Shown: positions 2,093 through 52,297 of the stretch, in pieces | Position numbering within the stretch: the first letter of the stretch is position 1 | How the letters are laid out: each line of letters opens with the position of its first letter | Assembly (NCBI RefSeq): GCF_015207035.1 | Contig: NZ_JADEXQ010000025.1 | Location: 1-60,728 of the forward strand | Reading direction: 5' to 3' | From: Romeriopsis navalis LEGE 11480 | GTDB lineage: Bacteria; Cyanobacteriota; Cyanobacteriia; Leptolyngbyales; Leptolyngbyaceae | Length of the DNA: 60,728 nucleotides | Notes under the pieces: generated by a model | What the model saw: only the letters and a program-made list of their open reading frames with translations | Told to the model about the DNA's origin: nothing | The model's database searches: none | Translations under genes and position numbers: made by a program

Positions 2093-3139
2093 ATGATCAA
2101 TACATCAACAGATAACGTAGGGCTTACAACTCTAGGGCGACTAGAAAAAATTGATGTCCGTGAATATTGGAAAAGAGAAGATAGTGATTTCACCCCGTGG
2201 CTAGCTGAAACGTCGAACATCCAGCTTTTAAGCGAAGCGATCGGGATTGAACTAGAAGTTGAAGCCCAGGAAAAGCAAGTTGGGCCGTTTCGGGCTGATA
2301 TTTTGTGTAAAGATACGGCGAATGATCATTGGGTACTGATCGAAAACCAACTTGAGCGAACCGATCATATTCACTTGGGGCAGCTTTTAACCTATGCAGC
2401 CGGTCTTAATGCCGTGACAATCGTCTGGATTGCCGCTCGCTTTACTGAAGAGCATCGTGCGGCCCTTGACTGGCTCAACGAAATCAGCAACGAAGACTTT
2501 AATTTCTTCGGTTTGGAAATTGAACTTTGGAAAATTGGGAAGTCAGCAGTCGCCCCAAAATTTAATATCATTAGCAAACCCAATGATTGGAGCAAAAGCA
2601 TTACTGGGGCTGCTAAAAGCATTCAGTCCGACTCGCTAACAGATGCAAAAAAGCTGCAACATGATTATTGGAGTGCTTTTCGGCAATATGCCTTTGAGCA
2701 TGGCCAACGGATTCAACCCACGAAGGCACTCTATCAAAATTGGATGAATATTGCGATCGGGCGCAGTGGATTCATTCTCAATGCCATTGCTTCAACCTGG
2801 AACTCACAGCTGCAGAGTTATGCCAGTCATGAAATTCGTGCGATGTTGAAGATTGATCATAATCAAGCACAGTTGTGTTTTGATTTTTTCCATAAACAGC
2901 AAAAACAATTGGAAGCAGAATTCGGAGAAGCATTGATTTGGGACAGCTTACCTGACCGAAAATCTTGTCTCATTTATGTCCGTAAGTCGGTTGATCTTAA
3001 TAACCGTGATGACTGGGATACACAGCATGCATGGCTAACCCAGAAATTAGAAAAATTGCACATGATCTTTTCTGGCCGGATTAAGAAACTCGACATTGAT
3101 AGTTTGGATTCTGAAAGCCTCACGGGGGAAGAGGTATAA
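2093..3139 (+). CDS. DUF4268 / PD-(D/E)XK nuclease-like protein
   Basis: A 348-residue protein if the ATG at 2093 is used; an upstream TTG at 2042 would add 17 hydrophobic residues and is less likely. The N-terminal half has the pattern of a restriction-endonuclease-like fold: an acidic residue in FRADILC (residues 83-89 or so), then WVLIENQLERTDHIHLGQ, in which E-x-Q takes the place of the usual E-x-K. The C-terminal half (from about residue 200) matches the DUF4268 domain, including the HDYWSAFRQYA segment. Proteins of this kind occur singly in many bacteria and are of unproven function; nuclease activity is inferred from fold only. The gene stands alone between two terminator-like hairpins and faces the symporter gene. 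Family assignment is fairly sure. Confidence 0.8.
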   Translation: MINTSTDNVGLTTLGRLEKIDVREYWKREDSDFTPWLAETSNIQLLSEAIGIELEVEAQEKQVGPFRADILCKDTANDHWVLIENQLERTDHIHLGQLLTYAAGLNAVTIVWIAARFTEEHRAALDWLNEISNEDFNFFGLEIELWKIGKSAVAPKFNIISKPNDWSKSITGAAKSIQSDSLTDAKKLQHDYWSAFRQYAFEHGQRIQPTKALYQNWMNIAIGRSGFILNAIASTWNSQLQSYASHEIRAMLKIDHNQAQLCFDFFHKQQKQLEAEFGEALIWDSLPDRKSCLIYVRKSVDLNNRDDWDTQHAWLTQKLEKLHMIFSGRIKKLDIDSLDSESLTGEEV

Positions 3140-3140
3140 G

Positions 3141-3191
3141 CCTTGAAGGTTTATCTTCACTTTATAAAGTAGTCAAGATAAACCTTCAAGG
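3141..3191. terminator. Bidirectional terminator hairpin between convergent genes
   Basis: A perfect 17-bp inverted repeat (arms 3141-3157 and 3175-3191) starts two bases after the stop of the DUF4268 gene and ends 11 bases before the 3' end of the convergent symporter gene. The 17-base loop itself contains a 12-base palindrome (ACTTTATAAAGT). There is no long T tract, so termination is inferred from the position and stem strength. Confidence 0.55.
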
Positions 3192-3201
3192 TTGCTAAGC
3201 A

Positions 3202-4632
3202 CTACCGACGACGGCGAATCTGCTTGAAGTTATAGAACCCAAACACAAGCCAAAATACTAATAAACCACCGGTCAAACCCAGCGTCGCGATCGGCCCAAA
3301 CTTGTGAATCAAAATCGGTGCGATCGCCGTAAACAATCCCCCACCGACGATCGGCTCAAACAGCAACTGCTTGTAGGCAAAACTCTCCAACGCCGCCGAC
3401 TGATTCCCTGGGTCAACCATCCGCAGCAGCAATAGCCCCGTCGAAGTTACCCCCATCGATTGCCCCACATCCCCAATGCCGCGCTCAAACCAGAAGTTAG
3501 GAATAATCCGGGGAGCCAGCACCAAGAAGGCAAACAAGTTCCAGGTAATGCCGATCAGCGACAAGCCGATAAATGCTGGGAGATTCGCGCCGATCGCCGA
3601 CAGCGAAATCGTCGCTAACGCTGTCACCACCGTCACATCCAGTGCTACACCACCGATGCGTTTGACGAGTGGACGGCTAATTAAATAACTGCGATTTGTC
3701 CGCAGCAACCAAACCTGCACAATAATTCCACCAATCACCGTCATGGGAAACAACGGAATATGACTTAATAAACCACCCTTATCACCAACACTAAAGGCAA
3801 TTCGTTCAAACCAGACCAAACCCTGCTGAATCAACCAGCCAATCACCACTGCCAAACCGACCAAACCAAAGTTTAGCGATAGCGGGTCGATCAGCATTTC
3901 CCGCATCATCTTGGCCCGCGTCAGCCGAATCTCCGGCGCTTCTTCCAGGTCTAAATCCAGCTCTTTCTCCAGCTCCTCCGGGGTGACAACGATCGCATCC
4001 GCATCGCCCACTTTTACCCGCCCGGTAAACTTGCCCCAGCTAATCAGAAATGTGCCGATGACAATCCCGGAGACAATCCCCACCGTGGCCATGGCGAGGG
4101 CCAAGTCACCACCGCTCTCAAATCCAATATCCTGGAACGTCGTCTGCATCGCCGCCGCCGTCCCGTGGCCCCCTTCAAAGGCCACTTCGATCAATGCCCC
4201 CGCACTAGGATGTACGTTAAACAACGGCGTCAGGATCAGCAATGTGAGCAAAATCCCCACCACATACTGTCCCCAAGCCAGAATTTGACCAAAGGCCACC
4301 TGGGGCGAAGCCTGCCGCCAAATATCCTTTGGACTGGGGATCTGATCGCCCAGAAACAGCGTCGCAAACACAATGTTAATAAATACGCTCGGCGACTGTT
4401 TCCACACCTGCTGCACCGCTTCTGGGAAGATCCCCGCCGCAAACGGTGACCCGTCACCGGCGATCGCGCCCACAACGCCCGGCCCCAGCAGCAGCGCCAA
4501 ACCGCCCGCAACGATCGAATCTGGCAGATACAGCGCTCTAAAAAATCCGACGCGTTTACGAATCGATCGGCCAGCCAACACCAGCACCCCGACGAGAATA
4601 AATGCCACAAAGACATCGATCAGCTTAAACAC
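3202..4632 (-). CDS. Sodium:glutamate symporter family protein (GltS-like)
   Basis: A 476-residue inner-membrane protein with about a dozen hydrophobic segments arranged as two similar halves, typical of the GltS (glutamate:Na+ symporter) family. The conserved segment EGGHGTAAAM in the first half is characteristic of the family. Between the halves lies a charged cytoplasmic loop of about 40 residues rich in Glu and Asp (near residues 215-255), which makes the protein longer than the roughly 400-residue enterobacterial GltS. The start is a GTG at 4632. The family says Na+-coupled uptake of an acidic amino acid; the actual substrate here is not shown. It is divergent from the peptidase gene at 4983. 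Confidence 0.85.
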   Translation of the reverse strand: MFKLIDVFVAFILVGVLVLAGRSIRKRVGFFRALYLPDSIVAGGLALLLGPGVVGAIAGDGSPFAAGIFPEAVQQVWKQSPSVFINIVFATLFLGDQIPSPKDIWRQASPQVAFGQILAWGQYVVGILLTLLILTPLFNVHPSAGALIEVAFEGGHGTAAAMQTTFQDIGFESGGDLALAMATVGIVSGIVIGTFLISWGKFTGRVKVGDADAIVVTPEELEKELDLDLEEAPEIRLTRAKMMREMLIDPLSLNFGLVGLAVVIGWLIQQGLVWFERIAFSVGDKGGLLSHIPLFPMTVIGGIIVQVWLLRTNRSYLISRPLVKRIGGVALDVTVVTALATISLSAIGANLPAFIGLSLIGITWNLFAFLVLAPRIIPNFWFERGIGDVGQSMGVTSTGLLLLRMVDPGNQSAALESFAYKQLLFEPIVGGGLFTAIAPILIHKFGPIATLGLTGGLLVFWLVFGFYNFKQIRRRR

Positions 4633-7843: not shown

Positions 7844-9312
7844 GAATTTACCAATACTTCTACTTGTACAATACAGCCTTGGCCCGGCGTACTATTGACT
7901 GTGAGGGTGCCGTCAATTGATTCGGCGCGCTCGCGCATGCCTTGTAAACCAAACCCGCTGCTTGTTTGCTGAATCTGAAATCCCCGGCCATTATCGGTAA
8001 TTTTGAGGCAGATTCGTTGTGCCTCGGCGGCGGTAATTTCTGTTGTAATCGCGAGGGCCACTTGATCGGCCCCGCTGTGGCGCGTGATATTCGTCAGGGC
8101 TTCTTGGATGATGCGGTAGAAAGCCGTTTGGACTTCGAGCGGCATCTGCTTTATAGGGCTTTGGTAGTCGAGTTCGCAGGGCGTTACGGCGCGAAATTCA
8201 TGGAGTAGATCCGATACTGCTTGATCAAAGGATTTACCCGCTAGGAAATTATTGCGTAGTTGGGAGACCGATCGGCGCACTTCTGCGAGGGCTGTTTGCG
8301 AGAGGGCTTTGGCTTGGGTGATAAATTGATGGGCGCGATCGGCGTTCGGTGGAAAATAAACCAACGCATTTTCTAGCTGAATGCTTTGGGCTGTGAGGGT
8401 GTGTCCTAGAGCATCATGAATTTCACGGGCAATCCGATTCCGCTCCTCCAGCATGGTCTGATTTTCGATCCGCTGGGCGTACTGCCGCAGTTGATGATGA
8501 GCTTGGGTGAGTTGATCACGGCTACGACGCTCGGATACTAGCGTATTCACTAAAACAATTAATAAAGCAGTCGTGACCGTAAACATCACTGTTACGTTAA
8601 AGATAAACACATTCAGAATCTGCTGAATGTCTTGAGGATTCAATGTTACGGGTTGATCAATCAAGCCCATTAGCTGCGACCAGACCATGCCAATGACAAC
8701 TGAAACCATGTGATAGGAGCTAAACAGCAGCATGACAGCGAGCCACCGCTGTTTTCCGGAAAACATCAAGCAGGCCCGAATCAGTGCCACAACGTGCAGC
8801 AGTAACAGACTTTCCAGATTCAGCGAATCGTGGGCACTCACCCCCGTGAGGTAGATTGCCCAAATTAGCAGAAATTCCGTTGCCGTATACAGCCATTGAT
8901 TGATGCGCGATCGCTGCTGGGAAATCTGTGTCCCCATCCAGATAAATAATCCACCGGAAGTCAACAAAACCAGCCATTCATAGATGATTGTTGCCCAACT
9001 TGGCAGAAGGAATCCTGGCGTTAAGAGCAGCGGCCATAGCAAAATAATGGCGATGAATCCTTTGCGGCTCTGTGGCTGTCGCCAACTCCAACCGCAGCCC
9101 CCGAGCCAACTGCCTAGGACCAGGAAAAATAATGGCGTCGTTGCGCTGATGCCCACGGCGATCGAATTATTCACACCGTCTCGCTCGAAAATAATGCTGA
9201 GTGCATCATCGGGAGCCAGCCCCATATACAGCAGCACAATCAGCAGCAGCAACCATTCAATATAGAGCAATGGTTTGAGCGGATGGGTAATCGATCGCCT
9301 TGCGAACATCAT
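7816..9312 (-). CDS. NarL-type sensor histidine kinase (HisKA_3)
   Basis: A 498-residue kinase when started at the ATG at 9312; a TTG at 9375 would add 21 residues. About seven hydrophobic segments fill the first 260 residues, so sensing is likely intramembrane. A short coiled coil leads into the HisKA_3 dimerisation domain, with the phospho-accepting histidine at residue 299 in RIAREIHDALGH. The ATPase domain follows, with the N box (IIQEALTNITRHS) and the G box near the end (GFGLQGMRERA). It partners the overlapping response regulator. The signal is unknown. Confidence 0.9.
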   Translation of the reverse strand: MMFARRSITHPLKPLLYIEWLLLLIVLLYMGLAPDDALSIIFERDGVNNSIAVGISATTPLFFLVLGSWLGGCGWSWRQPQSRKGFIAIILLWPLLLTPGFLLPSWATIIYEWLVLLTSGGLFIWMGTQISQQRSRINQWLYTATEFLLIWAIYLTGVSAHDSLNLESLLLLHVVALIRACLMFSGKQRWLAVMLLFSSYHMVSVVIGMVWSQLMGLIDQPVTLNPQDIQQILNVFIFNVTVMFTVTTALLIVLVNTLVSERRSRDQLTQAHHQLRQYAQRIENQTMLEERNRIAREIHDALGHTLTAQSIQLENALVYFPPNADRAHQFITQAKALSQTALAEVRRSVSQLRNNFLAGKSFDQAVSDLLHEFRAVTPCELDYQSPIKQMPLEVQTAFYRIIQEALTNITRHSGADQVALAITTEITAAEAQRICLKITDNGRGFQIQQTSSGFGLQGMRERAESIDGTLTVNSTPGQGCIVQVEVLVNSWLTSSASL

Positions 9313-9565
9313 GAAAACAATCCAGCGAGAGCAAGTCAGCAACAGTTCTCTCACTATAGGCTGACTTATCTTCAAGCAGTAGAGTCTTTGGGGCTGTTCT
9401 CCCTAGTACCAAAGTCACAATCTGATTGCTGGTGCTGCGCCACCGCGCAGTCACCGCTGCCACGCATAGCAAAGCAATCAGTCTGCAATATGGGTCTTTG
9501 TTAATGTTCAAGCGCGGCTGTTGCTTCCGTCAAACAGCATGTTTCGTCAAATACCATTCACATTA

Positions 9566-10405
9566 CTAATAGCGATGCCAACGGCGACGTTCATAGCGCC
9601 GGCGTCGCCGTTCATAGCGTCGACCGCGGCGATCGTATCGCCGATCATCACGGTCATATCTGTGGGGGCAAGGGATATGGATTACTTCACGAGGGCGAAC
9701 GATGGTGCGGGTGACTTGACGATTTTGGATATCAATGACGATCGGAAATTCGCCTGATTCGATAACCTGACGACCCCGTTTAATCTGATAGGTCAGCAAA
9801 TTCTTGCCCGGACGCACTGCCAGATACTTACTCTGATGCTTGTGCTCTGGCGACACGAAAAACTTCTCGGATCGCCGTCCTGCCTCATATTCGCGGTCGG
9901 TATAAGGTATCGTGCCACCCCCGATCGTCGGGTTTTGAATCACCACACGTAACCCCGGTGCTGGGGGTGTGGTACTGGATGAGAAGAAAGCCTTGATACG
10001 GGGCTTGCCACGCCGATAAGGCGTCACGTCATGTGCTGAGACTAAAACCGTTGAGCCATAAATTGAACGCGGTGTGTGATAGCTATATTTTGGACGATGG
10101 CGACATCTGGATCGTCGGTAAGTCACGCCCGTTTGCTGATAAATCTTTTCGTAATTCACCCACTTTTGTACCAGGCTTGTTTGATTCAACGTTGGGGAGG
10201 AATCAAATTCAATTCCGGCGGTGGCCGATGTCGTGTTGCCAGACGGCATATTTGCCGGGTTAAAGGCCAATGCTGGGCGGGCCAATGCTGATTGGTGCCA
10301 GCTCAATGCCAACGGTAAGAGCAATGCCGTGGTGACGATCATGCCCGGCGTCTGAGCCGATCGAGGATTGGGCTGGACCCGCAGTCGCGGTTTAAAAATT
10401 GGCAT
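9566..10405 (-). CDS. Secreted protein with Arg/Tyr-rich tail, unknown function
   Basis: A 279-residue protein that I do not recognise. Residues 22-43 form a hydrophobic signal-like segment ending in an ALA site, so translation may start at the internal Met22 (10342) rather than Met1. The middle has conserved-looking short motifs (for example YTDREYEAGRRSEKFFVSPEH), which suggests an extracytoplasmic beta-rich domain. The last 35 or so residues are an extremely basic and tyrosine-rich tail with repeated RYDRR/RYERR units. Such a tail could bind polyanions such as nucleic acid, lipopolysaccharide or sulphated polysaccharide; that is inference. It stands alone, downstream of a small inverted repeat. 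Confidence 0.7.
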   Translation of the reverse strand: MPIFKPRLRVQPNPRSAQTPGMIVTTALLLPLALSWHQSALARPALAFNPANMPSGNTTSATAGIEFDSSPTLNQTSLVQKWVNYEKIYQQTGVTYRRSRCRHRPKYSYHTPRSIYGSTVLVSAHDVTPYRRGKPRIKAFFSSSTTPPAPGLRVVIQNPTIGGGTIPYTDREYEAGRRSEKFFVSPEHKHQSKYLAVRPGKNLLTYQIKRGRQVIESGEFPIVIDIQNRQVTRTIVRPREVIHIPCPHRYDRDDRRYDRRGRRYERRRRRYERRRWHRY

Positions 10406-10428
10406 GGCAACACATCAGGAATCTTACT

Positions 10429-10461
10429 TAAGCTTGATTATTTCGGGATAAACCAAGCTTA
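10429..10461. promoter_or_regulatory. Inverted repeat upstream of the Arg/Tyr-rich protein gene
   Basis: TAAGCTTG at 10429-10436 and CAAGCTTA at 10454-10461 are perfect complements 17 bases apart, about 25-55 bases upstream of the start at 10405. It could be an operator or a leader hairpin; nothing else supports a specific role. Confidence 0.3.
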
Positions 10462-31181: not shown

Positions 31182-31291
31182 GCGATCACTGCATTCCGGT
31201 AGAGCAACGCCAGTTATTCAACTGGCACAAGGCCTTGAGGAATTCCGGTTGTTGAACTTGTGGTCATCCCTCGCCAGCCCAAAATTTTCAA

Positions 31292-31328
31292 TAAAAAGCC
31301 TCCGATTCACTAGGCATGAATCAGAGGC
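31292..31328 (-). terminator. Intrinsic terminator on the minus strand
   Basis: Read on the minus strand, GCCTCTGATTCA (31328-31317) pairs with TGAATCGGAGGC (31309-31298) over a 7-base loop with one mismatch, and a TTTTTATT tract follows directly. There is no minus-strand gene to its right before the CHAT gene at 31754, so it should terminate an unannotated transcript. Confidence 0.6.
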
Positions 31329-31500
31329 GGAAATCAGGGTGCATCTACCATCTCTCTATACGTAATCCCCCTTGTGATCTCAGGCCAGTCGGCATAAAGA
31401 TCAGGCAAAGAGTCCTTAAAGTTCTAGTAAGGGATAAACCCTCTGATGCCGGGAAAAGTTAAGCGTGACATGATGAAAAATGACCTGTGACGTTTAGTCA
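31298..31500 (-). ncRNA. Candidate small RNA ending at the minus-strand terminator
   Basis: The strand to the right of the minus-strand terminator has no credible protein. It does have local structure: CGGCAT (about 31453-31448) pairs with ATGCCG (31396-31391), and an inner AGGG/CCCT hairpin lies between them. The 5' end and promoter are not identified; the right boundary given here is a guess. It could also be a leader of something else. I see no match to the RNAs I know by sequence (tmRNA, RNase P RNA, SRP RNA). Confidence 0.3.
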
Positions 31501-44708: not shown

Positions 44709-46136
44709 TTAGGATTTGCGGGGTTGGTGGCGTTTGGGTCGATGTTTTTGTTTAATGCGCTTGATCTGAGCCAAGAAGTGGCTGCCTTTATCGGGATTGA
44801 CCATGTAGACATAATTTGCAAATCCTTCGATCGCGCCCATCAAATCAGCACTATGTCCCCAAACTTTACCCGCTAAACCATCCTGCTCGATTTGGTACAG
44901 TGTCGCCCGGAATCGCTTCAACGTTTTGCGATCGACATTCAGTTTGTCATTTACCACAATTCCCGTCACTTCTTGCTGACGTGATTTGCGCAATACCCGC
45001 GTCTTCTGGGGATGGACTTGAAACCCTTCATGGCTGACAATCTGCGTCACTTGGCGCAGGAGCCGCCCAACTTGTTCCGTGGCTGCCCCAGATGCCGAGA
45101 AGGTGAGGTCATCGGCATAACGGGTGTAAGCGTAGTCAAATTCCTGGGCCAATCCGGTTAAGCGCCGATCGAGGCGATGGCAGAGAATATTTGTGATGCT
45201 AGGACTGGTGGGAGCACCCTGGGGTAAGCGGCGATCGGACTGTGCCACATAGTAAGTCCGACCATCCAGTTCGACCATTTCAACTTCTGGCTCGGTACAA
45301 ATTAAAGCAAAAATCGTTGCGGCGGCTTCCGAGTAACCCAAGGCGCGGAACATGCCCTTCACCCGGCGATAGGACACAGAGGGAAAGAAATCCTGTAGAT
45401 CGAGATTCGTAACAATATCGGCGCCGACATGGGGCTGGGCATTGGTGACAATCGATCGCTGACGGCAAAATCCATGGGCGGCATCATGAATCTCAATCAA
45501 TTGCAGGATATTTGCTTCAATCCAATACTGTGCCTTTTTCAGGCGGGGCGCCGGTGCCGAAATCAACCGTTCACCCCCGGTTTTTTTCGGAATCCGAAAG
45601 CGGATATAGTGAGAAACTTGACTTGTGCGACGGGAGAATGCCAACCAGCGCAGTTCTCCCACCGAAATTCCCATGGCGGCGGCGATCGCGGCGGCGGTCC
45701 CCAGTTCGGGTAAATTGTGGCGTTGCAGCCGCTCGACATCACACTCAACGTGGTTTAGCCCACTGGAAACGCCCTCGCCCAAATAAGTAATGTCCTGCGC
45801 TTGACGGGCCTTCCAGGCCGCGGCGCGTTCCTGCCGCTCCTGCTCGCGGCGGGCTTTGGTTTCCTGGCGTTTCTGGAGCGATGCCACCAGTCGTTCTTTT
45901 AAGAGCCGTTTTTTCAGCGCTTTCTCATCATTGAGTTTGCGATTCTCAGCCCGTAGTTCGGATAATTCGCGTTGAATTTCCCCCTGACGCTGGATCTCTT
46001 CGGCGGGGTCATTGGGGAGCTCCCCTGAACTTGGCCAAAAGCCCAGCCGGATCATTTCCGTTAGGATCACTTCGTCTTTTGAGCTTTGACGAATCCGATC
46101 GTATAGGGCTTGACGCGTCTGCGGCTGTTGATTCAT
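44709..46136 (-). CDS. Retron reverse transcriptase with long N-terminal coiled-coil extension
   Basis: A 475-residue reverse transcriptase. The first 165 residues are an extension: an acidic helical start, a strongly basic coiled coil (about 45-112) and a short helical domain. The polymerase core has the first catalytic Asp246 in NLDLQDFFPSV, QGAPTSP (306-312) and the YADD box (340-343). Two features mark retron enzymes: NAQPH at 232-236 between motifs 2 and 3 (the NAxxH motif) and VTG at 390-392 in the thumb. There is no maturase or endonuclease domain, so it is not a group II intron protein. It should copy part of an adjacent structured RNA into multicopy single-stranded DNA. It is the last gene of the minus-strand retron cassette. 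Confidence 0.93.
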   Translation of the reverse strand: MNQQPQTRQALYDRIRQSSKDEVILTEMIRLGFWPSSGELPNDPAEEIQRQGEIQRELSELRAENRKLNDEKALKKRLLKERLVASLQKRQETKARREQERQERAAAWKARQAQDITYLGEGVSSGLNHVECDVERLQRHNLPELGTAAAIAAAMGISVGELRWLAFSRRTSQVSHYIRFRIPKKTGGERLISAPAPRLKKAQYWIEANILQLIEIHDAAHGFCRQRSIVTNAQPHVGADIVTNLDLQDFFPSVSYRRVKGMFRALGYSEAAATIFALICTEPEVEMVELDGRTYYVAQSDRRLPQGAPTSPSITNILCHRLDRRLTGLAQEFDYAYTRYADDLTFSASGAATEQVGRLLRQVTQIVSHEGFQVHPQKTRVLRKSRQQEVTGIVVNDKLNVDRKTLKRFRATLYQIEQDGLAGKVWGHSADLMGAIEGFANYVYMVNPDKGSHFLAQIKRIKQKHRPKRHQPRKS

Positions 46137-46158
46137 GGGGAAGAACCTTAAAAACTTA

Positions 46159-46231
46159 AAAATGCAGAGTTGAATGGGCCGAACAACGCTTTGAATCTGC
46201 GATCAACGCCCAACCCTCAACTCTGCATTTT
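46159..46231 (-). other. 15-bp hairpin just upstream of the reverse transcriptase gene
   Basis: AAAATGCAGAGTTGA (46159-46173 on +) is the exact complement of 46217-46231, with an inner TGGGC/GCCCA pairing (46175-46179 with 46208-46212). On the minus strand the hairpin is followed by TTTTTAAGTTTTTAAGG and, 23 bases later, the ATG. It could be the end of the retron RNA, an attenuator, or a terminator that limits reverse transcriptase expression. Confidence 0.5.
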
Positions 46232-46313
46232 GTGATTGCTAGATCATGACTGGCCTAGCGATTTTTCCATCCGCCTCTTCGGGAACCTCTCAGGACTGGA
46301 TTGCTCAACTCGA

Positions 46314-46388
46314 GCGGGTCCGCCCTACTGTCGCTCATTCGATTCACGGAATCTGCACCGGAATAGCGACAGTAGGGCGAAGACCCGC
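46314..46388 (-). other. Compound hairpin, candidate msd stem of the retron
   Basis: On the minus strand a 7-bp outer stem (GCGGGTC with GACCCGC) and a 15-bp inner stem (CGCCCTACTGTCGCT with AGCGACAGTAGGGCG) are separated by a two-base bulge on one side. The loop of 29 bases contains a further small GATTC/GAATC stem. It is the strongest fold in the gap. A long near-perfect stem of this kind is typical of the reverse-transcribed part of retron RNA. Confidence 0.6.
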
Positions 46389-46623
46389 ATAGTTAAGAGC
46401 AAGCCAGTGGTGCGCGGCTAGACTAACTGCATGGATGGCGATCCACCACCCGGATTGCAAGGGGACTCATGGATGGAATAGTACTTGTGTACTCACAGGC
46501 TTAGTGTAGCCTGATATGTTTAATTTGCCCAGTGGTGGACTGAAAATAACAACGGATTTGGGATTGATTGATGATCCGTAAACGAAATTGAATTTGAGTC
46601 CATCAAAAATGCATAACTAATCG

Positions 46624-46644
46624 TTAGACACAAAAAATGTCTAA
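46624..46644 (-). other. Small hairpin after the SWIM gene
   Basis: TTAGACA (46624-46630) pairs with TGTCTAA (46638-46644). On the minus strand the loop is a T run rather than the tail, so it is a poor terminator. It marks the upstream edge of the retron RNA gap. Confidence 0.4.
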
Positions 46645-46671
46645 TCAGCTAGCAAGGTTTAAGTCAATCGA

Positions 46672-48309
46672 TTATTTGCGATTAGCTGCCATGCGCAAGG
46701 CTAAAATATGCTCGCAGGGGCCTTTGAATAATGTGTTGTGTTGATGCCAGTTACAGCTACACTCTGCTTTGACAATTCGTTCATCGCGATCGACTGCCAC
46801 CGTTGGGGCATAGGTCTGATTCTCATCGGTAATGCTGCCCTGTAATAAGCGCGTGCCATTTTGATCAACGGATGAGTTTTGGACGCGTAGTGTATTGTCA
46901 TCAAGAAACCGTCTTGCCTTCTGTTCTCGCTCATTGACAAAGCGCAGTTTTGACATTGGTAAGGGATCGCGGGACAGCTCGCGCAGGCGGTAAACCTGCT
47001 TGTTCAAGTCGAAAATAGCCCGGCCCGCTTGGGTGTAGGCGCCCAGTGCACCGAGGATTGTCGATCGATCGAGCTTGAGTTGCTTCGCCAATGTATCGGG
47101 GCTGGCAAACTTTGCGGCTTGCAATGCTCCAAAGACTTGTCGTTTGGTGAAGTCATCCACGTCCGCACGGGGTGCTAATAAGTCAAAGTTGCCAGCCGCA
47201 GCCCAATCATTCGCCGTCCAACCCGATAAACCTAACGTGAACGTCAAATCATTCAGATCAGCCAGATAGAATGACGGTAAACCGGTGCCTAAAAGATGCA
47301 CCGTAAATTTGCGCGCCATGGGAATCAATCGTTCCAAAATCAGTAAGCGACGTCGCCCCCAAACTCGAACCGTCTCCGGCTTTGGGCCTGTGTAGATGGA
47401 GCGATCACAGACAATTTCTTTATCCCATGGCTCCAGGATGGCCCGCACGGGTTCCCCTGGCGTCAGCTCATAGCGCAAGGCCCGTGGGCCTTTCTTCTCT
47501 TTGTGCCGCCGTAGGATAAAGCAAATATTGTAGATATCCATCGGGTGCAGATCAAATTGGATTGCCGGTAATGACATGGCCGAACTCACCTGCAAGAAAC
47601 CGCGGACCCAACTATCGGGGAGGTCAATTTTGACTTCTTTATAGGCGATATTGCCCGTGGTCTGGACTTCAAAGCCGGACGGATCAACTTCAAACTTTGT
47701 GGTTTTGTAGTCGCGGATTTTTTGAAATTCGTTATAGAGGGTGGCGGAATAGTCGATATTTGTGGTGCCACAGGCAAACTCATCGACTTGCTGAAATACT
47801 TCATAACTCGCACTCAGCTTGCCATAGCTGGATTCATCTTGACTGAAGCATTCAAAGAAAATCTCGTCGGGATGTACCGTAATCACTGGATCAAGCACAA
47901 ACCAGGCATCGTAGTCTTTCTGATAGAGGTAGTTAAAATAGCGCTGCTGTGCGGTATAGAAATCGCGCCAGCGGCTACTGCGGCTTTGCTGAATCACCGT
48001 TAGTTCATCCCGCAGGGCGTTGATCTTGTCACTAACAGCCTGCTTTTGGGTGGCGATCAGTTGCCAATCAATTTCCAATTGCTGCGCGGCCCAGGCTTTG
48101 TATTCTGTTTTATCCTGGGGCTTAAACCGTAAGTCGGAAACGACCACATGGTGTAATGCACTCATGGCTTCGCGAAAGGCCAAATGTTGCCGCAGCTCAC
48201 CGCGAAAGAACGTTGGCTGACGCGTCAAATCCGGGGCAAAGGACATCTGGGTTTGATTTCCCTGTCCGTGCACGGCACTGCTGGAACTGTAGCTGTAGTT
48301 GAATTGCAT
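46672..48309 (-). CDS. Retron accessory protein with winged helix and SWIM zinc finger (WHSWIM-like)
   Basis: A 545-residue protein. Most of the first 380 residues are of unrecognised fold. A winged-helix-like segment spans about 387-445 (FTKRQVFGALQAAKF ... LAKQLKLDRSTILGAL). A SWIM zinc finger closes the protein, with ligands C517, C519, C532 and H534 (CSC...CEH). SWIM fingers bind DNA or proteins. It lies 43 bases downstream of the WGR/HEAT gene and directly upstream of the retron RNA and reverse transcriptase, all on one strand. Such a pair with a retron reverse transcriptase matches, from memory, the type XIII retron class. It may be the toxic effector or part of it; this is inference. 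The start is ATG at 48309. Confidence 0.85.
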   Translation of the reverse strand: MQFNYSYSSSSAVHGQGNQTQMSFAPDLTRQPTFFRGELRQHLAFREAMSALHHVVVSDLRFKPQDKTEYKAWAAQQLEIDWQLIATQKQAVSDKINALRDELTVIQQSRSSRWRDFYTAQQRYFNYLYQKDYDAWFVLDPVITVHPDEIFFECFSQDESSYGKLSASYEVFQQVDEFACGTTNIDYSATLYNEFQKIRDYKTTKFEVDPSGFEVQTTGNIAYKEVKIDLPDSWVRGFLQVSSAMSLPAIQFDLHPMDIYNICFILRRHKEKKGPRALRYELTPGEPVRAILEPWDKEIVCDRSIYTGPKPETVRVWGRRRLLILERLIPMARKFTVHLLGTGLPSFYLADLNDLTFTLGLSGWTANDWAAAGNFDLLAPRADVDDFTKRQVFGALQAAKFASPDTLAKQLKLDRSTILGALGAYTQAGRAIFDLNKQVYRLRELSRDPLPMSKLRFVNEREQKARRFLDDNTLRVQNSSVDQNGTRLLQGSITDENQTYAPTVAVDRDERIVKAECSCNWHQHNTLFKGPCEHILALRMAANRK

Positions 48310-48352: not shown

Positions 48353-51300
48353 TTAACTGGCCCGTACGGCTACGGGTTGGACTTTCACCAATGTTTCGAT
48401 CGTGGGATAAGCCTGTTGGATTTGCAGCAGAATCTCGATCGCTTGGGATTTATCGCGAATGGTGATCGCGGCTGATTGCCGGGTGAGAATGGCGGCGACG
48501 ATGGCGGCGGCGGTTTCACTTTTGGTTGCTTCCGCTGCCAGAAACCGGAAGATGCGTTGTTTGGCCACCCGATTACGATTCACTTGGCCTAGCACGATTG
48601 TGAAATATGGCTGAAGTTCGCGCAGGCGATCGGGCGCATCGGCGGCATATCGCTCCAGGTAATTCGTGGCAAATAGCTGCATATCCGGCGCCGGATGTTG
48701 ACTGAACTTCAGGAGATAATCGGGGCCATCACTACTGTGGAAACAGCGGCTGAGCAGATCCCGACCGAGTTTGCGGATTTCGGGCAGATTGTTATCACAA
48801 ATGCTGACGATCAACGATGGCGTAAAGTCTTCTGGCTGGAGCTGCTCGGTAAAGAACTGGAACCCAAACTGCCGCACATCATCCCAGGGTGATTCTAATA
48901 CCATGACCGTTGTTAGCAGCTTTTCCGAATCCTGACGAATCTCACTCAATCCGGATTGAATCATCTGACAACCGGCCGATCGCACCGTTTGGATTTCGTG
49001 GTGGGTCAGTTCACCCATTTGGAATATTGTTAGTTGTTGTTGCCAGTCGGCGCGGCGCGATTGCAGCATATGGCCAGCTAATTCCTGGGCGGCAGTCGAT
49101 TCGCATTGCAATAACTGCCACGTTTGTTCTGATGTGGCTGCGGCCATCCAGCGCGTCACATCCTGACCAATTAGCTTAACCAAGAAGTCATGCACACCCG
49201 CATGGGGTTCTGGCTGCTGCAATACCGATTGGATGTGCGGGAGGAATTGATTGATAAAGTCGGACGATGTATTTAACAATCGCACTAGTGTTGGTTGAAT
49301 TGCGTCCCGCATTTCTGGCAATTCGTGGGTTGCCAAGGTCATCAGTTGTTGCGGCTGTTGTTCGAGGACTGTATCCGGTAATGTCCCAAATATCTCCACG
49401 CCCAGCACCCGCACGGCATCGGTGGGTGACTCGATTAAGGCATCCAGTAAGCCCGGCGGAAATTCTGCGGCAGGTGTGATGTGGTTGCGCAGAAGCGTCG
49501 CGCCAAAGACTTGTAGTACCTCAAGTGGCTGCCGCAGTAAATCCACAATAATATCAATACCCAGCGATCGCATCGGCGCCGCAAAATAATCCAGCAGACT
49601 GTCGATCGTGTTCTGCATGCGTTCGATTTCCGCTTCCTGCAGCACTAATAGAATCGCAATCACCTGCCCAACAATCACTTGCGACAAAGCCTCTGGTAAC
49701 GGTGTTGCCGTACTGAGTAACTGCCGCACAAAGGCGCGGGTTTCGGCTTCTGGGCTGACAATTAAAGCTGCAACCAAAGGGCCATCCGACAGGAAGCGAT
49801 CGCGTTGAGCAGTAATCCAGATATAGGCCTGCGATCGTGCGGGTGCATAGGCACAATTGGCCACCGCCAAGACCAAATCCAGATTCGGGTTCTGCGGGGC
49901 ATAGCGATCGTGGGCTAAGCCAAACGCAAACTCGGCGGTTTCGGCGTAGGGCTGACGGAGCAATTTCACTAAATCCGCCAGCTCGATTGTCGGGCAAAAT
50001 TCGGCGCAGGTTTTCAAGGCCCGCACTGCGAATTCATGGACGCTACCACACCGGCTTTCGAGGAGTAGGCGCAGCAAAGAATGGGGCTGCGCGGTCCATA
50101 GTTCTGGGAAGGCTTCTTCGCGGATCGTGGGGGCGGGGTCGCCCGGTTTATAGCCGTTTTGACAGCGCCAAGCGTTCTGCGGATGTTTGTAGGCGTAGCG
50201 AGGACTATGGGTGTAAAGGATATGGTTGAAGGCCCAGTACGCCGCATATTTATCCCAGGCCGCGCGTCCGGCTTCGACTTGCTGCCAGTTGTTATCCCAG
50301 CGATAGAGTATGCGGTTGCGTATGTCTTGGGCGTCTTGGTCGGCGTATTGCAGCAAGATTTCGGTGGCCAGGGAGACGTACGCCGTATCCGCTAATTCCC
50401 CCAAGCGCTTCAATGTTTTCCAAACTCGACGACGCAGATAGTTCTTGGTCTTTTCACCAAAGGCAATCTTGGCGTTCGGGCCAATGAAAGCGGCTTTGAA
50501 GTCGGGGTTTTCGTCGTGCTCCCAACGGCCGGTTTTGTAGTTGTATTCCTGGTTCGTATAGCGATGGATATACTCACCATTGGGCAAGGAAATATACCAA
50601 TCATTGCCGGTATAGCCCTTGTCTTCCTGTTCAAACCGATAGGCTAATCGACCAAACATCTCCGCATCTTGGCGATATTCCGCTAGCTTGAAGATGTGCC
50701 GGACCACCTGGAAATAGGGCGGTCGCAGGGGCACTGAGCCCAGTGTTTCAAACAACGCCGATCGCATGTGAGGAGAATTGATTTGATACAGCGTTGTGAG
50801 CACCTGAACCTGTTGCAGTGTGGGATTCTGCAACTCCGTCGCCAGAACGGCCGCAAATTCTTCCGCTGATGCCTCTGTGGCGACGGTTTGGAGTACCCCC
50901 GGTAACGTTTGGATCAAGCGTGCTTGCCAATCTGCGGCTTGTGCCGGTGAGACCAACTTCAACAGAGCCGCTAGGGCAATGCGCTTCACATGGGCATGGG
51001 CCGGGGACGTTGAGCGATCGTAGAGATCTTCAAGGGGATTGATCGCCGCTGCATCACCACAGTTACCCAAGGCCCAAGCCAAGCAATAGTTGCGCATGGG
51101 TGGATTTTGTAATGGATCAGGTCCGAGCAATTGGATCAGCAATGGTGCCGCCGCCGAAATCCGTAATTCACCCGATCGCCAGATGGCTCGACTGAGGGAC
51201 CAAGGCGGTTGATCTCCATTGGTGTCACCTTGTGCCAATCGGGCTAAAATTGCGGCCTCTCGCTGACTGGCAAGGGCTTGGGTAATGGCTGGATCGGCTG

Positions 51301-51604
51301 CCGTGTGAGCTGCGGGTGCGGGCTCAACCGCGGCTGCCGGATCGAGGCTGTCTAAGTCTTGACCCGTAACATCCTGGTAGCCTTTCTTCGTTTTTGCAGC
51401 AATGAGCTTATCAAATACCTTTTGGGCCTCGGCCCGTGGGACTGGCGCATCTGTTTGGCTGCCTTCGCGGAGCGCTTTACCCCGCCGGCCATAGCGGAAG
51501 TTAACGACGTAGCGATCGTCCTCCACTTGGCAAATATCAGCTTCATAAACCTTGTCAGACTTTCCCGATTGGTAGAGCAGCGTCGTGCGCTGAATAAGCT
51601 GCAT
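48353..51604 (-). CDS. Retron accessory protein with WGR domain and HEAT/ARM repeats
   Basis: A 1083-residue protein from the ATG at 51604, which has an AGGAG ribosome site; an in-frame start at 51661 is upstream and unlikely. Residues 1-82 are a WGR domain (KVYEADICQVEDDRYVVNF then RYGRRGKALREG), a nucleic-acid-binding fold known from PARP proteins and MolR/YehI. The rest is a long alpha-helical array with HEAT/ARM-like repeats, including several in the C-terminal half. The E. coli MolR (YehI) protein has the same WGR-plus-repeats plan and there, too, SWIM proteins are encoded nearby. It is the first gene of the retron cassette. A scaffold or sensor role is inferred, not shown. Confidence 0.85.
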   Translation of the reverse strand: MQLIQRTTLLYQSGKSDKVYEADICQVEDDRYVVNFRYGRRGKALREGSQTDAPVPRAEAQKVFDKLIAAKTKKGYQDVTGQDLDSLDPAAAVEPAPAAHTAADPAITQALASQREAAILARLAQGDTNGDQPPWSLSRAIWRSGELRISAAAPLLIQLLGPDPLQNPPMRNYCLAWALGNCGDAAAINPLEDLYDRSTSPAHAHVKRIALAALLKLVSPAQAADWQARLIQTLPGVLQTVATEASAEEFAAVLATELQNPTLQQVQVLTTLYQINSPHMRSALFETLGSVPLRPPYFQVVRHIFKLAEYRQDAEMFGRLAYRFEQEDKGYTGNDWYISLPNGEYIHRYTNQEYNYKTGRWEHDENPDFKAAFIGPNAKIAFGEKTKNYLRRRVWKTLKRLGELADTAYVSLATEILLQYADQDAQDIRNRILYRWDNNWQQVEAGRAAWDKYAAYWAFNHILYTHSPRYAYKHPQNAWRCQNGYKPGDPAPTIREEAFPELWTAQPHSLLRLLLESRCGSVHEFAVRALKTCAEFCPTIELADLVKLLRQPYAETAEFAFGLAHDRYAPQNPNLDLVLAVANCAYAPARSQAYIWITAQRDRFLSDGPLVAALIVSPEAETRAFVRQLLSTATPLPEALSQVIVGQVIAILLVLQEAEIERMQNTIDSLLDYFAAPMRSLGIDIIVDLLRQPLEVLQVFGATLLRNHITPAAEFPPGLLDALIESPTDAVRVLGVEIFGTLPDTVLEQQPQQLMTLATHELPEMRDAIQPTLVRLLNTSSDFINQFLPHIQSVLQQPEPHAGVHDFLVKLIGQDVTRWMAAATSEQTWQLLQCESTAAQELAGHMLQSRRADWQQQLTIFQMGELTHHEIQTVRSAGCQMIQSGLSEIRQDSEKLLTTVMVLESPWDDVRQFGFQFFTEQLQPEDFTPSLIVSICDNNLPEIRKLGRDLLSRCFHSSDGPDYLLKFSQHPAPDMQLFATNYLERYAADAPDRLRELQPYFTIVLGQVNRNRVAKQRIFRFLAAEATKSETAAAIVAAILTRQSAAITIRDKSQAIEILLQIQQAYPTIETLVKVQPVAVRAS

Positions 51605-52297
51605 CGGTATTCTCCTAGCGTGGGGCAAATGGATGGCAGGGCTAAGTTTAGAAATCCCCAAATTGCGCCTAGAGCAACGCGCTCCACACGAAATTTGCGT
51701 CGATTCCGTTCAAAAAATTAGACGAATGATGACTGGGCGCCGCCTCGCCGTGAGTGCGCGTCAGTTGTGCAATTATTGTCGTGTCGAGGTTCTCTTTAAG
51801 GGCTTGCAGCGATGCATATTGGGCAGAACATCAATCAGACAGAGCGGATGTTCACTGGATTGACAGAGACCCAAGGCAAAATCACCATGCAAGCAAATCT
51901 GATAGTTTATTTGTACTTGTCGAAATTGTAGCGAAGAATAATTATGAATGCAAGTAATCCAACATCGCGGACTGCTTCTAATCACCAATGAAATTTATGA
52001 GAGGCTGATTGTGAGAACTTGCCCGGCGGTGGACCTGCGAATTGGGGGTGATTGTCTGCTGGCTCCCCTTTTGTCGCAATACGCTGTCATCAAATTCCGG
52101 CGTCAATCAGTTGGAATTGAAATCAGATGCTGAGTTGGCTACAGCTTTTGTCTGTACCGATCTCGCTGGCCGGTATTATTCACATGGCACTTGAGTAATA
52201 CCGGCTTGCGAAAGACCTTCACGAAGGTGAAGGTCTTTCGCAAGCCGCTGCGGAAATGGGAATGCTTAGATGTGACTCCATTCATCTAGTCAGCGGA
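51605..52297. other. Divergent intergenic region with two overlapping hairpins
   Basis: It separates the retron cassette (minus) from a kinase gene (plus). Short frames inside it (51773-51988 minus, 51948-52133 plus) show no family features. No clear promoter is visible for the cassette; a minus-strand AT-rich stretch lies near 51700. Two hairpins near the kinase start are listed separately. Confidence 0.4.
52169..52247. promoter_or_regulatory. Two mutually exclusive hairpins upstream of a kinase gene
   Basis: Hairpin A pairs GCCGGTATTA (52169-52178) with TAATACCGGC (52196-52205). Hairpin B is a perfect 21-bp stem (52202-52222 with 52227-52247) around GAAG. They share bases 52202-52205, so they cannot both form in full. 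B has no T tract, which argues against a simple terminator. B ends 51 bases before the kinase ATG at 52298. Confidence 0.5.

Follow-up and report, generated by a model that had tools for sequence, protein, structure and literature searches.

A probable msr-msd RNA gene of a type XIII retron in Romeriopsis navalis, with relatives in which the RNA and the reverse transcriptase are apparently encoded apart

The 60,728-nucleotide stretch of DNA analysed here (the window; contig NZ_JADEXQ010000025.1 of Romeriopsis navalis LEGE 11480) carries on its minus strand, in this order, the genes of a WGR-HEAT protein and a SWIM protein, a 535-base gap (46137-46671), and the gene of a reverse transcriptase (RT). 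Does the gap encode the template RNA of a retron, and if so, where does that RNA begin and end? We conclude, with a probability of about 0.93, that positions 46265-46478 of the minus strand are the msr-msd ncRNA of a type XIII retron (Table 1). A preliminary description of this DNA had proposed a retron template RNA in the gap; the assignment to type XIII, a LexA-type box beside the RNA and a split arrangement in relatives are additions to it.

RT_XIII was the top PADLOC profile for the window's RT, the next profile lying 322 bits lower, and the protein contains the motifs YADD, NAQPH and VTG. We take NAxxH (here NAQPH) and VTG to be the hallmarks of retron RTs. The locus has what defines type XIII, a classification that reportedly comes from Mestre et al. 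2020: an RT_XIII with YADD, SWIM and WGR/HEAT partner genes, and a conserved structured ncRNA. SWIM and WGR-HEAT proteins make an unusual partner pair, and we know of no account of how they act; an AlphaFold model of the SWIM protein (8 sequences) had a mean pLDDT of 45.6 and was not used. A literature search, in which papers were judged partly by their titles and the beginnings of their abstracts, found none on type XIII or on LexA control of a retron among those examined. It is extremely unlikely that the RNA is instead the template of another, DRT-like defence RT (for example, one for long repeat synthesis), since RT_XIII is the best profile by the above margin, both presumed hallmarks are present, and the RNA is flanked by a1/a2 repeats; a neighbouring RNA as such is also used by other defence RTs, according to the abstracts of PMC12039810 and PMC11100668. 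A plasmid search with the RT returned 12 records, one of which, on Methylobacterium bullatum, covered at least 80% of the RT, and a phage search returned 6 records with none covering 80%. ARAGORN found no tRNA or tmRNA within the window. Elsewhere in the window, NsiR1 (RF02399), nitrogen stress-induced RNA 1, lies at 31291-31350 (-); this match, like the nearest RT relative, points to a cyanobacterial source.

The gap had been described as full of nested hairpins, and its minus strand indeed folds at -195.9 kcal/mol, compared with -144.45 kcal/mol in 100 dinucleotide shuffles (z -8.48). Both inverted-repeat pairs that had been put forward as alternative closures of the RNA exist, 46265-46272 with 46471-46478 and 46224-46231 with 46606-46613, each complementary at 8 of 8 positions. 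Present as well is the compound hairpin at 46314-46388, with 26-nt arms (46321-46346/46354-46379, 81% complementary) and 7-nt arms (46314-46320/46382-46388); it corresponds to the upper msd. Downstream of a2, a perfect 15-bp inverted repeat (46159-46173/46217-46231 (-)) with a 43-nt loop is followed by T runs and looks like a terminator or a small repeat element. No Rfam family matched in the gap at its gathering score, and the 3 matches at E up to 10 were all far below the cut-offs; RF00170, which we take to be the Rfam msr family, gave no match in the gap at the gathering score or at E up to 10.

Retron RNA covariance models are used by the PADLOC web server to scan genomes, as stated in a part of PMC9252829. 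Our covariance model R2, from 14 relatives without the window and without L003 (the window's nearest RT relative, a named cyanobacterium), recovered 46277-46461 (-) at 184.6 bits and E 2.8e-55 as its only match in the window. Model R1, from 10 sequences including the window, gave 37 matches at E up to 1, 3 of them weak opposite-strand echoes, and these fell in 31 of the 47 sources; among the 16 unmatched sources are more distant RTs, and SWIM or RT stretches that have their RNA at another place. Across the R. navalis genome R1 found one locus, plus a weak other-strand echo of the same hairpin.

The RT relatives sampled comprised seven loci (a cyanobacterium, a Blastocatellia bacterium and five Chitinophaga), the Methylobacterium bullatum plasmid and further genomes. 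A common RNA plan, consisting of CTTGC, a stem-loop, a long interrupted hairpin and CGAAG between two arms, was found in 25 stretches, which come from 23 RT loci, L109 contributing two stretches, and from a single SWIM locus. Among the loci, L111 and L112 repeat L005 and L004. The arm sequences vary between species, yet in most cases the two arms of an RNA are able to pair. In the window and in relatives such as L003, L071 and L072, the RNA lies between the SWIM and RT genes on one strand.

The preliminary description had staked its candidate on covariation in homologous gaps; this was examined, and covariation was found. RNAalifold marked both-side changes in 31 of 57 pairs for 10 sequences, and in 35 of 67 pairs for 15 Chitinophagaceae sequences (alignment A2), which were handled apart because their msr differs; all 15 also open with CTTGC. 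For 23 RNAs including the window (alignment A5, made with MAFFT from sequence only), both-side changes occurred in 37 of 52 pairs. In A5, 90.0% of cells were paired, compared with 73.6% when shuffled and 30-44% when slid, the latter a partly circular control as the consensus structure was derived from A5 itself; the covariation score was 0.455, compared with a mean of 0.167 in shuffles that ignore relatedness, 0 of 500 being as high. The size of the gap between real and control covariation is not explained by circularity or relatedness. A5 takes in only the stronger of the two RNA copies of L060, the other scoring 86 bits, and the shortened RNAs of L164-L168 stand outside all the alignments.

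Because the arms could not be aligned by MAFFT, the closing helix was assessed by the duplex energies of own and swapped arms. Over the 23 RNAs, own arms gave -25.3 kcal/mol and swapped arms -14.3 kcal/mol, with 0 of 20,000 permutations as good; the own a2 was the best partner in 14 RNAs and not the best in 9, ranking 13, 14 and 22 in L063, L108 and L107a. Ten of the 15 Chitinophagaceae RNAs (L006-L009 and L102 were left out as near copies) gave -31.5 for own and -18.4 for swapped arms, with the own partner best in 8 of 10. The window has the inverted repeats that close a retron RNA, and they are short and on the weak side: 8 bp, the own partner second best of 23, and 22 of 500 shuffles as good in a separate test. 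When the 40-nt neighbourhood of this pair was shuffled 300 times, its 8-base match was equalled 6 times and its duplex energy 19 times. At the same place L003 has an 11-base match (0/300 shuffles), while L072 has only a 6-base perfect match (34/300) but a duplex energy that was reached by 0 of 300.

Closure by 46602-46613 with 46224-46236 would instead give a larger RNA of about 390 nt. An 8-base perfect match does exist at that pair, but it was equalled in 54 of 300 shuffles, and its duplex energy in 69 of 300; the region shows no excess in relatives either, with 70 of 300 (L003) and 153 of 300 (L072) shuffles as good. Moreover, its 3' arm belongs to the 15-bp perfect hairpin mentioned above, which would compete, and the 10-sequence alignment marks no conserved column beyond CGAAG. 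The longer closing pair, being at chance level in the window, L003 and L072, was rejected as a boundary, and the larger RNA is very unlikely. Only the short pair has same-place counterparts in homologues. As judged from sequence comparison, a1/a2 covaries, and the relatives decide for the shorter of the two proposed RNAs, the 214-base RNA with its msd around 46314-46388 that had been preferred from the start and that the homologues show.

Table 1. Features of the window and of related loci. Coordinates of the msr and msd helices in the window were worked out from alignment A5.
Feature	Position	Strand	Basis
RT, retron type XIII, 475 aa	44709-46136	-	PADLOC RT_XIII, E 5.7e-198; Pfam RVT_1
SWIM-type protein of type XIII retrons	46672-48309	-	PADLOC SWIM_XIII, E 4.5e-241; Pfam SWIM
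WGR-HEAT protein of type XIII retrons	48353-51661	-	PADLOC WGR_XIII, E 0; Pfam WGR, HEAT_2
Probable retron ncRNA (msr-msd) with closing repeats, 214 nt	46265-46478	-	covariance model R2 match plus flanking a1/a2
a1 arm	46471-46478	-	8/8 complementary to 46265-46272; homologues carry arms of other sequence, likewise complementary, at a similar position
a2 arm	46265-46272	-	as for a1
CUUGC, msr start	46457-46461	-	invariant in 23/23 rows of A5; its G is 46458
msr stem-loop, 46444-46451 paired with 46433-46440	46433-46451	-	helix 2; 99.5% of cells paired, both-side changes in 5/8 pairs
msd domain	46295-46408	-	helices 3-6; derived from A5
msd basal helix	46391-46408/46295-46310	-	both-side changes in 8/15 pairs
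msd helix	46382-46387/46315-46320	-	both-side changes in 6/6 pairs
msd helix	46361-46374/46326-46340	-	both-side changes in 14/14 pairs
msd helix	46349-46353/46341-46345	-	both-side changes in 4/5 pairs
CGAAG adjoining a2	46277-46281	-	invariant in 23/23 rows of A5; template start (msDNA 5' end) predicted by analogy
LexA-type palindrome AGTACACAAGTACT abutting a1	46480-46493	-	fits RGTACNNNDGTWCB
Possible promoter: TGGGCA (46526-46531), 17-bp spacer, TACACT (46503-46508)	46503-46531	-	8/12 consensus letters
Split loci (RNA and SWIM gene at one, RT at the other)	L154/L155 (G377), L156/L163 (G212), L158/L066 (G288), L062/L061 (G089), L159/L065 (G389), L157/L060 (G251), L160/L161 (G427)		
RNase III genes	L056:3456-4166, L058:1843-2613 (-), L062:5130-5810, L159:4010-4708, L158:7256-7996 (-)		Pfam
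RNAs 3' of RT	L165:4339-4416, L166:2677-2779 (-), L167:2592-2688 (-), L168:2686-2789 (-)		matches from 1e-7 to a weak 0.011

Among 386 genomes of the phylum, SWIM_XIII was found at 1e-40 in 17 and below 1e-150 in 15, and RT_XIII at 1e-120 in 22, reaching the first 12 profile positions in 15. The 15 genomes with SWIM_XIII below 1e-150 are the same 15 that have the full-reach RT_XIII, both finer cut-offs having been picked after the tables were seen. In the remaining seven (1e-138 to 1e-163) the match begins at profile positions 66-106, and SWIM_XIII at 1e-40 is absent from their genomes; G272 holds a late-starting RT of this kind in addition to its full-reach one. The SWIM_XIII matches of G099 and G103 are weak (1.7e-55 and 2.0e-48), and neither genome has an RT_XIII at 1e-60. 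With stricter filters the RNA model matched in 15 of the 386 genomes, namely, strongly, 13 of the above 15 (all except G066 and G249) together with G131 and G278, which have a late-starting related RT and gave weak, shortened matches. No RNA model match was obtained in G066, G249 and G674, where both the RT and the SWIM gene are present. In the small-genome relatives L069 and L070 (G249 and G066), the SWIM and RT genes almost abut, and the RNA, if any, is different or elsewhere. Taken together, these comparisons demonstrated, at the level of sequence, an RNA with a1/a2 closure, an msr stem-loop and a long msd hairpin that is kept by covariation and found together with RT_XIII and SWIM_XIII genes. 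By analogy with known retrons, which are bacterial defences against phages, this RNA is very probably the template for the retron's small single-stranded DNA. With its boundaries, a covariance model and many homologues in hand, detection of the msDNA is reduced to one experiment.

The distance between the RNA and the RT gene varies widely among the 13 sampled genomes of the phylum that have the RNA, the RT and the SWIM gene. The two lie within 150 bases of each other in G000, G110 and G127 and are 1.8-2.5 kb apart in G128, G270 and G272, while in seven genomes they are separated by 28 kb or more or occupy different contigs: 28 kb with the RT on the other strand (G427), 639 kb on one contig (G377), or on separate contigs (G089, G212, G251, G288 and G389). 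The SWIM gene can also stand away from the RNA and RT, on another contig in G127 and about 4 kb away in G110 and G550, all three of which have the RNA beside the RT. In the seven separate RT stretches the RNA model, run with filters off, found nothing convincing (best 10.7 bits, E 0.27); the 5' side of the G251 RT is 267 bases from the contig end, so that another copy of the RNA may lie past that end, the 3' side of the G427 RT is at a contig end, and the other five split RTs are at least 11 kb from contig ends. YADD and NAxxH were found in 29 of 29 RTs including the seven split ones, and VTG in 28 (the L107 stretch ends before VTG). In a midpoint-rooted tree of these 29 RTs (leaving out L006-L009, L099, L101, L102, L104 and the divergent RTs of G066, G249 and G674), the seven split RTs and those of the three 2-kb genomes fall in a ten-member cyanobacterial group with a support of 92/92, which is under the tool's mark of 95.

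These distances bear on whether the RNA could be a structured 5' leader that regulates translation or transcription of the RT rather than a template. Its place directly upstream of the RT gene in the window would fit such a leader. On the other hand, the seven cyanobacterial genomes keep the RNA behind the SWIM gene with the RT far off, and the split RT stretches have no RNA of their own. A cis-acting leader was rejected because of this separation, and we regard it as highly improbable. That all the components are retained without linkage, by contrast, is a good argument for joint function and points to action in trans; seven genomes apparently carry split, trans-acting retrons. These genomes offer a natural test of a retron RT finding its template in trans. 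The usual retron is described in parts of PMC8867640 as a single msr-msd-RT transcript. There is an artificial precedent in Eco1, for which a section of PMC8989520 reports that DNA is still made with msr and msd on separate transcripts; in that case the RNA itself was split, whereas in the relatives here the RNA is split from the RT.

Several further arrangements were seen in the relatives. Five cyanobacteria have an RNase III gene (Pfam) adjacent to their type XIII RT or no more than about 1 kb from it, and the enzyme may process the RNA. In L056, a gene with an NYN domain lies between the RNA and the RT. Near the separate RT of G377 are genes of a VWA protein and a second WGR protein (L154:6409-8280 and 9013-10434 (-)). 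Two retron RNA copies follow one SWIM gene in L109 (2086-2272 and 2414-2599), L107 (2042-2227 and 2356-2541) and L060 (3607-3790 and 2281-2510 (-)). The RTs of L165-L168 are relatives of RT_XIII that carry long extensions at the N-terminus (a TPR match in L165, the one of the four scanned with Pfam); on their 3' side follows an RNA with the CTTGC stem-loop, long closing arms and a different middle. At L164:2759-2839, a shortened RNA without the msd hairpin lies next to an RT (2953-4260) that has an extra stretch in frame (by eye), and it looks like a decaying retron. The split relatives, the tandem RNAs and the LexA-type box are of more interest than the RNA itself.

The LexA-type box fits RGTACNNNDGTWCB, the cyanobacterial LexA consensus given in a section of PMC3091678. 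The pattern occurs at a single place in the window, where 0.19 matches are expected, and at 20 places in the 6.47-Mb genome, where it is not enriched (24 strand matches, compared with 71 for the reversed control pattern). Two of the 26 other RNA copies, those of L003 and L072, share the box, at offsets from the core of -32 (window), -32 (L003) and -39 (L072), and 24 of the 27 copies have no box within 260 bases upstream. L003 and L072 also have TGGGCA before the box and a TATAAT-like stretch; in L003 this reads TGGGCA-17-TATAAT at the place of the possible promoter of the window. The promoter call in the window is weak because its -10 element is TACACT, and a promoter scan of 46100-46720 listed no promoter and one terminator-like site on the other strand. 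Elsewhere in the R. navalis genome, an identical palindrome (L176:1501-1514) lies 115 bases before a gene for a B12-dependent ribonucleotide reductase, a plausible SOS target, and neither lexA nor recA was recognised after any of the 20 genome places. As a lead, the box suggests that the RNA may be SOS-induced in the window's lineage, and it provides a testable induction signal.

In known retrons, a guanosine beside a1/a2 provides the 2'-OH from which the RT starts to copy the msd (passages of PMC8989520), and the complex of RT, RNA and DNA restrains a toxic effector until a phage signal arrives (passages of PMC12548924). By analogy, the RT of the window would bind the RNA and start from such a guanosine, the candidate being the invariant G46458 in CUUGC, which sits inside a predicted 4-bp helix (helix 1). 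DNA synthesis would begin at about 46281, proceed along the msd hairpin and stop close to its base at about 46400, for a product of roughly 110-130 nt. Together with the RT, the RNA-DNA hybrid would keep the SWIM and WGR-HEAT proteins in check, and a signal from a phage or from DNA damage would release them. More weakly, we infer that LexA would repress the promoter of the RNA, with the template rising in the SOS response. We give an even chance to the joint proposal that type XIII retrons are modular and able to act in trans in one cyanobacterial clade, with the RNA beside the SWIM/WGR genes, the RT far away and some RTs beside an RNase III gene, and that the LexA-type box makes the template SOS-induced in the window's lineage, coupling DNA damage to defence.

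Compared with type XIII retrons, the window has all three protein families and an RNA between the SWIM and RT genes on one strand, and no feature among those tested excludes it from the type. What differs is its LexA-type box, and in its relatives the separation of RNA and RT; to our knowledge, neither a LexA-type box before the RNA nor RNA and RT encoded apart is a known feature of type XIII. With respect to Eco1-like retron RNAs, the RNA of the window differs in having no Rfam match and in its CUUGC and CGAAG, which are presumably unlike the Eco1 motifs. It shares with them the a1/a2 repeats, the msr, the msd hairpin and a conserved G beside a1/a2, as these RNAs are described in passages of PMC8989520.
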